DNA of 64,000 bases, taken from positions 1 through 64,000 of the forward strand of contig CP070778.1 in the NCBI GenBank assembly GCA_020346245.1, in the 5' to 3' direction. The notes beneath the pieces were generated by a model. The model saw nothing but the letters and a program-made list of their open reading frames with translations. It was not told the DNA's origin and did not search any database. Source of the stretch: Flavobacteriaceae bacterium. Lineage in GTDB: Bacteria; Bacteroidota; Bacteroidia; Flavobacteriales; Flavobacteriaceae. How positions within the stretch are numbered: position 1 is the first letter of the stretch; the number at the start of each line of letters is the position of its first letter. Shown here piece by piece: positions 34,709 to 41,734 of the stretch. The translations under genes were made by a program, and so were the position numbers.

Positions 34709-36307
34709 ATGACATTACTCACTTTTATACTCTTCACTGGGTTTGTTGCACTTTATGCCACCTGGAAACTTAGGCAGGATAAATTAAATACCAAAGATGG
34801 TTATTTTCTGGGAGGAAGATCACTTACCGGAATTGTCATTGCAGGATCCTTACTTCTTACCAATATTTCTACAGAGCACCTTGTGGGGATGAATGGCTCT
34901 GCCTATAAGAATGGGGCCATTATAGTAGCATGGGAGGTTACATCGGCATTAGCACTGGTAATTGCGGCTTTGTATTTTGCACCCAGGTACCTAAAAATGG
35001 GCTTAACGACCATTCCTGAATTTTTGGAAAAACGGTTTGATGGTCTTACAAGAACTCTTATTGCACTATTGCTTATTATATCATTTGTAGCAACACTTTT
35101 GCCTATTGTGCTATATACCGGGGCTTTAAATATTGAAGCAATATTTGAAATATCCGAACTTTTAAATGTAAGCCAAAAGGAAGGTATATGGATTACGATA
35201 CTTGTTGTTGGAGGAATTGGTGCCATATATGCGATATTTGGCGGCCTTAAAATGGTCGCTTACACAGACACCATAAATGGTTTTGGTCTGCTCGTGGCAG
35301 GTTTACTTGTTCCTATTTTGGCCCTCTGGAGTATAGGTGACGGAAATCTTGCCGAAGGTATTAGTATTGTCTTTAAAAAAAATCCGGGTAAATTTAATGT
35401 TGTTAGCAGTGAATCGGGCATTGGGCCAGGATCGAGATCTGCTATTTTACCTTTTGAAGTAATTTTTACCGGATTAATGCTCAACCAGATTTATTTCTGG
35501 ACCATGCACCAGTCAATAATCCAAAGGGTACTTGGGGCGGTTAGCCTTAAAGAAGCCCAAAAAGGTTTGCTATTTACGGGATTACTGAAAATCCTGGTTC
35601 CTTTGATAATTGTGCTTCCCGGGCTTATAGGGTTTTATTATTTTGGGGAAGAATTTTATAACAATCCGGACAGTGTTTATCCCAATCTGGTGAAAATGGT
35701 TTTACCGGCCTGGCTAACCGGATTCTTTGTAGCTGTCATGATGGGCGCAATACTTACCACCTTCAACAGTGCCTTAAATAGTGCAGCAACAGTTTTTAGC
35801 CTTGGTATTTTTAAAAGGTATATCCAGAAAAATGCAACTGAAAGAAGGCTTGTAAGTATAGGTAAATGGACTTCAGCCATACTTGCTGTTTTTGCCATTG
35901 GAATAGCTCCTTTTGTGGCCAATGCTCCTGAAGGACTTTATCAACTCTTACAACAACTTAACGGTATATTTTTCATCCCCATTGCCAGCGTAATTATTGC
36001 AGGCTTTTTATTGCCCAAGGTATCAGCCACAGGAGCTAAGGCCGGCTTACTCTTTGGCTTGTTATTTTATATTATAAGCTACTTTGTCCTGGAAGTTGAT
36101 CTGCATTTTGTTCATATTTGGGGAATAGAATTTGTACTTAATATTGGTATAATGCTTTTAATATCACAGTTTTTTCCAAACAAGGAAATTTTTGTGATTA
36201 AGGATGCCGGGGTATTAAATCTTAAACCATGGAGATTTGCAGGACCTTTTAGCTTGTTTTTGGTAGTATTCACCATTATTTTGTACCTTTTACTAGGAAA
36301 TGTATGA
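34709..36307 (+). CDS. sodium:solute symporter (SSS family), probable sugar/inositol uptake
   Basis: This protein of about 532 residues has 13-14 membrane helices of the sodium:solute symporter family. The N-terminal DGYFLGGRSLTG and GMNGSAYKNG segments match SGLT/inositol-type members. The ATG at 34709 begins just before the first helix; an ATG 24 bases upstream is possible but adds a redundant hydrophobic stretch. The 3' end overlaps the myo-inositol oxygenase gene by eight bases, which makes myo-inositol the most likely cargo. That assignment is by context only. Confidence 0.87.
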   Translation: MTLLTFILFTGFVALYATWKLRQDKLNTKDGYFLGGRSLTGIVIAGSLLLTNISTEHLVGMNGSAYKNGAIIVAWEVTSALALVIAALYFAPRYLKMGLTTIPEFLEKRFDGLTRTLIALLLIISFVATLLPIVLYTGALNIEAIFEISELLNVSQKEGIWITILVVGGIGAIYAIFGGLKMVAYTDTINGFGLLVAGLLVPILALWSIGDGNLAEGISIVFKKNPGKFNVVSSESGIGPGSRSAILPFEVIFTGLMLNQIYFWTMHQSIIQRVLGAVSLKEAQKGLLFTGLLKILVPLIIVLPGLIGFYYFGEEFYNNPDSVYPNLVKMVLPAWLTGFFVAVMMGAILTTFNSALNSAATVFSLGIFKRYIQKNATERRLVSIGKWTSAILAVFAIGIAPFVANAPEGLYQLLQQLNGIFFIPIASVIIAGFLLPKVSATGAKAGLLFGLLFYIISYFVLEVDLHFVHIWGIEFVLNIGIMLLISQFFPNKEIFVIKDAGVLNLKPWRFAGPFSLFLVVFTIILYLLLGNV

Positions 36308-37118
36308 CATGGAAAAAGTATTCAGAAATTATAAGGATATAGATGTAAATGCAGCCGTTCGGGAACATTATCGTAAGATGCGTGAAAGGCAGACTTTTGA
36401 ATATGTTCAGCGGATGCAGCATAAATATTTGAAGTTTGACAAGCCTATGGATCTTTGGGATGCGATGAGCCATTTAAATGACCTTATTGATGTCAGTGAT
36501 CCGGATTTGGATCTGCCCAATGTGCAACATCTTATTCAAAGTGCTGAAGCAATTAGAGAGGACAGGCGACCAGACTGGATGCAATTGGTTGGACTCATTC
36601 ACGATTTGGGTAAAGTGATGTTTTTATGGGGAAGTGATGAAGATGGAACCAGCCAGAACGAACAATGGGGAATGGTAGGTGATGTTTTTGTAGTTGGTTG
36701 TGCGCTTCCGGAATCTTGTGTTTACCCTGAATTCAATAAGCTTAATCCGGATATGAGTGATTCCAGGTATAATTCAGAATTGGGAATATACAAAGAGCAT
36801 TGTGGTCTGGATAATCTTAATTTGGCCTGGGGGCATGATGAATATCTTTTTCAGGTATTAAAAAACCACAAAAATAACTCACTACCCGAAGCCGGGATGG
36901 CCATGATTAGGTACCATTCCTTTTACCCATGGCATACCGGAGCAAGTTATAGCGCTTTGCTCAGTGCCAAAGACGAGGAATATTTAAATTGGATACGAGA
37001 TTTCAATAAATATGATCTTTATACTAAATGTAATAAGACCTATGATCTGGAAGAGATAAAGGCTTATTATATGCCTATAGCTCAAAAGTATCTCGGAACA
37101 GAACCTATTTACTGGTAG
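36300..37118 (+). CDS. myo-inositol oxygenase (MIOX)
   Basis: This 272-residue HD-domain di-iron enzyme cleaves myo-inositol to D-glucuronate with O2. All expected iron ligands are visible: His77, His101-Asp102 (LIHDLGK), His169 (WGHDEY), His196 (IRYHSFYPWH) and Asp229 (FNKYDLYTK). The length matches eukaryotic and bacterial MIOX. The ATG at 36300 overlaps the symporter gene; an in-frame ATG at 36309 is also possible. The first step of inositol use is thus coupled to uptake. No uronate isomerase genes are in the window. Confidence 0.93.
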   Translation: MYDMEKVFRNYKDIDVNAAVREHYRKMRERQTFEYVQRMQHKYLKFDKPMDLWDAMSHLNDLIDVSDPDLDLPNVQHLIQSAEAIREDRRPDWMQLVGLIHDLGKVMFLWGSDEDGTSQNEQWGMVGDVFVVGCALPESCVYPEFNKLNPDMSDSRYNSELGIYKEHCGLDNLNLAWGHDEYLFQVLKNHKNNSLPEAGMAMIRYHSFYPWHTGASYSALLSAKDEEYLNWIRDFNKYDLYTKCNKTYDLEEIKAYYMPIAQKYLGTEPIYW

Positions 37119-38757: not shown

Positions 38758-38782
38758 AATTGGCAATAACATATCTTAAATA

Positions 38783-38812
38783 AATCGGCCCCCATCAGGG
38801 GCCGATTGCTAT
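38783..38812 (+). terminator. probable terminator hairpin after 37423-38757
   Basis: A 10-base-pair GC-rich stem (38783-38792 with 38798-38807, AATCGGCCCC/GGGGCCGATT) with a five-base loop lies 25 bases after the stop codon. The following tract GCTATTT is only weakly U-rich. Confidence 0.65.
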
Positions 38813-39127
38813 TTAATTGACATGCTGAATATCTTTCAGCACAAAGACTTTGACCTTGACACTTATCAACAATTGTTTATAAAACCCGTTCATAACATGT
38901 TGATTTTTAATTTCTTATAATTTTTGAATTATTTTAAAAAATGATTTATATTTATATCATGGTTCAAGGGAAGTGCCTGTCTAGGGTAAATCATTAGAAC
39001 CATTATAGAGTTGACGTTCTTTATATTATTGTTTAATCTTAAAGTTAATTTAGGGTAATTTATTATCAGATTTTAACTGCAAGACGAGCATGATGAAAGA
39101 GGGCTGTAGCTTTCCGGACTTATGTGG

Positions 39128-39374
39128 ATTCATTTACGTTAAATATAGAGCTTAGGTTTTGTGTTTAAGATAGGTGAATTAAAACGATAAGAAGATGCCT
39201 TCACGTGTTGCTTGGTTGAAAAATTAACAACATAGAAAGTTTCAAACGTTGATGCAGTTAGTCAAATGCAATCATTGGTTGCAGTCCTGTACTACGGTAC
39301 AGCACAAAAAGTTTGCTAACTACTTCTAAAAAGCCATGTCTGTGTACTTGTACAACGATATGGCTTTTGTTTTT
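39128..39374 (+). ncRNA. candidate structured RNA ending in an intrinsic terminator
   Basis: Within a 757-base gene-free gap the plus strand folds into several strong elements. Hairpin 1: 39128-39135 with 39172-39179, then 39139-39145 with 39162-39168. A three-way junction is closed by 39254-39266 with 39312-39323 (11 Watson-Crick pairs, one mismatch, one bulge). The junction holds 39267-39271/39279-39283 and 39287-39292/39297-39302, the latter capped by a C(UACG)G tetraloop. A long terminator hairpin (39329-39368) and T-tract follow. No protein frame fits. I cannot match it to RNase P, tmRNA, SRP, 6S or a riboswitch class. The 5' end and promoter are uncertain. Confidence 0.45.
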
Positions 39375-39375
39375 A
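39329..39375 (+). terminator. long intrinsic terminator of the candidate RNA
   Basis: A 12-pair outer stem (39329-39340 with 39357-39368, including one G-U) encloses an inner TGTAC/GTACA stem (39343-39347 with 39350-39354). GTTTTT follows. It lies about 140 bases before the isocitrate dehydrogenase ATG, which has its own -7 element. It therefore ends an upstream transcript rather than one containing that gene. Confidence 0.75.
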
Positions 39376-39479
39376 TACCCACCTTTTGCAAAATACGCCA
39401 TTTATTTTTTTAGCAATACACCACACAATAATCTCAACTAAAGTTTAATTTTCTGGCGTTTATTGCAACCTTAATATTG

Positions 39480-39487
39480 TATATTTG
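39480..39487 (+). promoter_or_regulatory. -7 element of the isocitrate dehydrogenase gene
   Basis: TATATTTG is a perfect TAnnTTTG match 27 bases before the ATG at 39515. A TTG occurs at 39463-39465, giving a short 14-base spacer, so the -33 element is doubtful. Confidence 0.5.
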
Positions 39488-39511
39488 CTGCGCTTTAAAC
39501 AATCTATCTAA

Positions 39512-41734
<2,223 letters not shown>

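Follow-up and report, generated by a model that had tools for sequence, protein, structure and literature searches.

A structured noncoding RNA upstream of isocitrate dehydrogenase that appears to found a new family in the Flavobacteriaceae

A gap of 757 bases (38758–39514) separates the gene of a CarboxypepD_reg-like protein from icd in the 64,000-nt stretch of Flavobacteriaceae DNA analyzed here (the window), raising the question of what this interval encodes. As a preliminary description had stated, the gap holds no credible ORF: the mechanical ORFs reach at most 47 aa, and no conserved ORF was found among the congeners' versions of the gap. The same description had placed a structured RNA at 39128–39374. 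Our analysis upheld the 3′ end and moved the 5′ end about 170 nt further upstream, since P0, P1, the start of P2 and the RNA promoter all lie outside that interval. The noncoding RNA gene would accordingly span about 415 nt, from ~38959 to ~39375 (Table 1), with both ends inferred from the promoter, P0 and the terminator to within about 3 nt.

The RNA has a promoter and a terminator of its own, the spacing of the former and the presence of the latter both being conserved. The TTG-N18-22-TAnnTTT promoter consensus recurs at a near-constant distance 5′ of P1 in the congeners and in most window-type relatives, and P0 starts 5 nt downstream of the −7 box, at the inferred start site. At the other end, the double-stem terminator with a T-tract proposed earlier reappeared in the MFE folds as a two-part hairpin. 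When one icd upstream region was taken from each of 100 sampled Flavobacteriaceae genera, 76 contained this hairpin motif, and its lower stem carries compensatory changes within the family; the apparent conservation of its sequence is partly a sampling effect, because the motif served to collect many of the sequences. The CarboxypepD_reg-like gene upstream ends with a separate terminator at 38783–38807. The −7 element attributed to icd in the preliminary description also held up, being conserved at 20–40 nt before icd in most relatives and belonging to a promoter located 3′ of the RNA terminator.

Table 1. Coordinates of the RNA gene, its helices and the neighboring icd elements in the window
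Feature	Coordinates	Strand	Details
RNA promoter, Bacteroidetes type	38924–38953	+	TTG 38924–38926, 20 nt, TATATTT 38947–38953
Whole structured noncoding RNA	38959–39375	+	~415 nt; DNA homology, covariation, fold z −4.6
P0, 5′-terminal helix	38959–39003	+	AUGGUUC (38959–38965) / GAACCAU (38997–39003)
P1 hairpin	39004–39025	+	UAUAGAG/CUUUAUA over nearly invariant CGUUCUUU (39015–39022); significant covariation
P2, long-range helix	39026–39190	+	39026–39034 / 39182–39190; closes the 5′ domain
5′-domain hairpin	39098–39115	+	AGAGGGC/GCUUUCC region; consensus structure of 30 sequences
5′-domain long hairpin	39125–39180	+	MFE fold
Pa	39191–39243	+	GAAACAU/AUGUUUC in relatives, degenerate in this genus; encloses Pb hairpin 39207–39231
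3′ junction domain	39251–39326	+	significant covariation in Pc and Pe
Pc	39251–39258/39319–39326 and 39262–39267/39311–39316	+	3′ junction domain
Pd	39268–39282	+	GCAAU..GGUUGC; loop sequence nearly invariant
Pe	39284–39305	+	UNCG loop; 3′ junction domain
Intrinsic terminator	39329–39376	+	AAAGCCAU..AUGGCUUU and T-tract; two-part hairpin
icd −7 element	39480–39487	+	TATATTTG; separate from the RNA promoter; conserved in relatives
icd, monomeric isocitrate dehydrogenase	39515–41734	+	neighbor outside the RNA; Pfam PF03971, 1285 bits

The fold was stronger than those of dinucleotide shuffles, with z from −3.9 to −4.6 and none of 100–200 shuffles equally good, and the MFE of the inferred transcript had a z of −4.6, P0, P1 and P2 appearing unprompted. 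Inspection of P0 revealed compensatory changes among genera (AUAGC/GCUAU, ACAAU/AUUGU, GUGGC/GUCAC and AGAAC/GUUCU). P1, which covaries as in UACGAAG/CUUUGUA, contains the almost invariant element CGTTCTTT, kept at most loci, and in P2 two covarying pairs are significant for the window type and one for the longer group. The long hairpin that the preliminary description saw at 39128–39179 is part of the MFE folds in nearly the same position, where relatives such as L010 and L011 have, by inspection, a hairpin of altered sequence. Columns of Pa are among the significant covarying pairs, with 4–5 pair types, and Pb is present in the MFE fold with a probability of about 0.95. The MFE folds also recovered the three-way junction and C(UACG)G loop noticed earlier, and congeners keep the UNCG tetraloop of Pe as UUCG or UCCG.

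Covariation was tested in two sets of RNAs, 30 of the window type and 52 of the longer type, each aligned by sequence only. The test was restricted to the proposed pairs and used a statistic not taken from R-scape; the RNAalifold structures come from the tested alignments themselves, and the controls were alignments generated by simulation along the inferred trees and put through the same folding. Consensus folding yielded −111.6 kcal/mol for the window type and −144.8 kcal/mol for the longer type; the tree-simulated alignments averaged about −18 and −22. Covarying pairs that reached significance numbered 8 (in P1, P2, Pa, Pc and Pe) and 21 (in most helices), respectively, against control means of 0 and 0.05, while a search of all column pairs without a given structure returned, at E<0.05, one pair for the longer type and zero for the window type. 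Covariation measured against simulated controls is our main evidence, from aligned sequences, for taking this structure to be real, and the secondary structure is conserved with compensatory changes. An AT-rich gap will always yield some fold, and terminators are frequent, but we give practically no credence to chance folding of such a gap next to the terminator of the upstream gene, a reading already refuted by covariation against the tree-simulated nulls and contradicted by the fold z of −4.6, by cross-genus homology and by the upstream gene's having its own terminator.

Rfam 15 gave no gathering-level match in the window, and with E up to 5 neither the window nor 28 relatives had a credible match on the RNA, in agreement with the earlier remark that the RNA lacks the landmarks of RNase P, tmRNA, SRP and 6S. 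Its size and housekeeping-like conservation would fit a diverged copy of one of these four RNAs, but besides the missing Rfam match, the RNase P of the window genome is located at 1460323–1460642 (186.8 bits) and its 6S-Flavo RNA (RF01685) at 1502664–1502771 (110.1 bits; 108 model positions), and the tmRNA of the congener G004 lies on another contig. Identity with RNase P, 6S or tmRNA was rejected on these grounds; the housekeeping-copy reading no longer stands for RNase P and 6S, and as a whole it is extremely improbable. 6S-Flavo is likewise a structured noncoding RNA of flavobacteria and does not match the gap RNA. An open-access literature search found no description of the RNA, with the Rfp sequences in the supplements of PMC9723704 outside the comparison. 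Rfam 15 and the open-access literature thus support calling the RNA undescribed, as the preliminary description did.

Homologues are widespread in the family, in genera that include Maribacter, Zobellia, Arenibacter, Cellulophaga, Winogradskyella, Polaribacter, Tenacibaculum, Aquimarina, Algibacter and Aequorivita. DNA search found them in 21 of 60 related genomes, and about three quarters of the 100 sampled genera have the RNA near icd. The CGTTCTTT element lies 250–560 nt before the terminator motif in most motif-carrying loci (129 loci), and it is also missing from the 23 icd upstream regions that lack this motif. When 84,980 species genomes were scanned with a pattern blind to icd, 67 of the 80 loci among the matches listed were upstream of icd. 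The RNA occurs in two main length types, of ~415 nt (window type) and of ~440 nt or more, and a shorter form exists in some genera. When the window genome was searched with a covariance model trained solely on the longer group B, the single match was at 39193–39372 (E 2.4e-6); by this longer-type model the RNA is single copy there. Outside the family, this covariance model, whose reach is limited, did not recover the RNA from the rest of the order; two weak order-level matches (G252 and G279) were rejected as terminators behind protein genes, terminator-only matches in Clostridium and Corynebacterium were rejected as chance hairpins, and Butyrivibrio is presumed to be the same case. Two odd matches to an exact P1 pattern, which has no bearing on distribution, fell within coding genes. 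One genome of g146, probably Flavobacterium, has no RNA in its rplS–icd gap (L268, G158); the gap is only ~280 nt, and the model match there is of the terminator type only, which suggests loss in this genus or gain in the others. Contigs with the flavobacterial order rplS–RNA–icd also turned up in a Chlorobiota MAG (L148) and a Rokubacteria MAG (L180), probably binned wrongly.

The usual gene order in most genera is rplS, RNA, icd. The window genome has the RNA beside icd, with rplS 0.9 Mb off, at 951329; the gene one beyond the RNA's upstream neighbor encodes a myo-inositol oxygenase (PF05153, 321 bits; 36300–37118). Elsewhere the RNA adjoins rplS with other genes downstream (L163, L169, L177, L187, L188 and L199), icd being replaced by a convergent unrelated isocitrate dehydrogenase, a topoisomerase subunit, a YebC-like gene or others. 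In the Winogradskyella MAG L163, for instance, a different isocitrate dehydrogenase of 479 aa occupies the usual place of the monomeric icd in reversed orientation (L163:1856–3295, minus strand). The RNA likewise keeps to rplS in four genomes where its distance from icd is ~4–7 kb, and a pentapeptide-repeat protein gene often stands between the two in Winogradskyella- and Gelidibacter-like genomes (L015, L130, L150, L164 and others). Because the RNA stays with either neighbor and icd keeps its own promoter, we regard it as neither an icd leader nor an rplS 3′ UTR, and the label 'upstream of isocitrate dehydrogenase' is a location, not a function.

These arrangements bear directly on the idea of a cis-regulatory leader or riboswitch of icd, controlled through its terminator like other leader RNAs. 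In most homologues the RNA and its terminator do stand directly before icd, in the same orientation, and the icd and icd-II riboswitch candidates of Proteobacteria (PMC8632094) are also structured RNAs with a three-stem junction upstream of icd. Those candidates, however, are cis elements near the start codon, whereas the flavobacterial RNA has a separate terminator, is followed by a separate and conserved icd promoter, and persists where the next gene is not icd, where icd is on the other strand or kilobases off, and where the pentapeptide-repeat gene intervenes. With no fixed link to a downstream icd, the leader reading was rejected on gene order and is highly unlikely. A mild cis effect on icd, for example by terminator read-through, may still occur, because most homologues sit just upstream of icd.

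Homology, a compensatory fold, a promoter, a terminator, a single copy and a place independent of icd and rplS are all evident from sequence comparison. What they most likely describe is a trans-acting structured noncoding RNA founding a new family, and we consider it probable that this is a stand-alone gene for an untranslated RNA of ~415 nt with its own promoter, intrinsic terminator and conserved fold, acting in trans. In this model, RNA polymerase would start at ~38959 from the RNA's own housekeeping-type promoter and produce a discrete, untranslated molecule of ~415 nt ending at the intrinsic terminator at ~39375. The transcript would then fold into P0, P1 over CGUUCUUU, the P2-closed 5′ domain, the 3′ junction domain and the terminator hairpin, and would presumably act in trans and not as an icd switch, either by scaffolding a protein–RNA complex or as a regulatory RNA. 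How much of the structure is conserved, how widely the RNA is kept and its occurrence in single copy all favor a trans-acting and probably protein-bound RNA.

A base-pairing regulatory small RNA, whose structure would mainly protect it and present short seeds, is a special case of the stand-alone RNA. Long sRNAs with intrinsic terminators occur, and Rfp18 of Flavobacterium psychrophilum is a conserved structured sRNA of a related genus (PMC9723704); it and other structured sRNAs of this species are likewise flavobacterial independent transcripts with strong predicted structure. However, covariation over most of the ~415-nt fold and the P2-closed multi-helix domain exceed what an sRNA needs, and the g146 genome, probably of Flavobacterium itself, has no RNA between rplS and icd. 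We therefore see base pairing as a possible but rather doubtful role for the trans-acting RNA.

Equally tentative is the proposal of a new large housekeeping-like RNA class confined to the Flavobacteriaceae, perhaps a ribonucleoprotein scaffold, in which boxA antitermination of the rRNA kind, through CGUUCUUU, would help to make the long RNA. The CGUUCUUU element of P1, ~55 nt from the RNA start, is a possible boxA-like element, and GTTCATTGACATATTG occupies a similar position in the rRNA leaders of relatives. Comparison of GTTCTTTATATTATTG in the RNA with GTTCATTGACATATTG gave agreement at 11 of 16 positions, a comparison chosen after the fact. The likeness is only a lead, because the match is imperfect and was noticed after the fact, and because P1 would hide the element.

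Among known systems, OLE, ROOL and GOLLD (PMC12286853) are likewise stand-alone, untranslated RNAs with extensive covarying structure and a function not obvious from their neighbors; unlike them, the flavobacterial RNA is shorter (~415 nt), has no Rfam match and was found only in Flavobacteriaceae. It appears to establish a new RNA family, as a further orphan among large structured bacterial RNAs, and occurs in most of the genera sampled from a major marine family of bacteria, several of these genera being culturable. As the gene is single copy and its promoter and terminator are defined, it lends itself to deletion and direct probing, which makes its function immediately accessible to experiment. 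A new Rfam entry would result and help to annotate the rplS–icd gap, which is usually left empty. In the relative L073, a Flavo-1 RNA (RF01705, 49 bits) lies at L073:110–191, upstream of the L19 leader and rplS, giving this locus three structured RNAs in succession.
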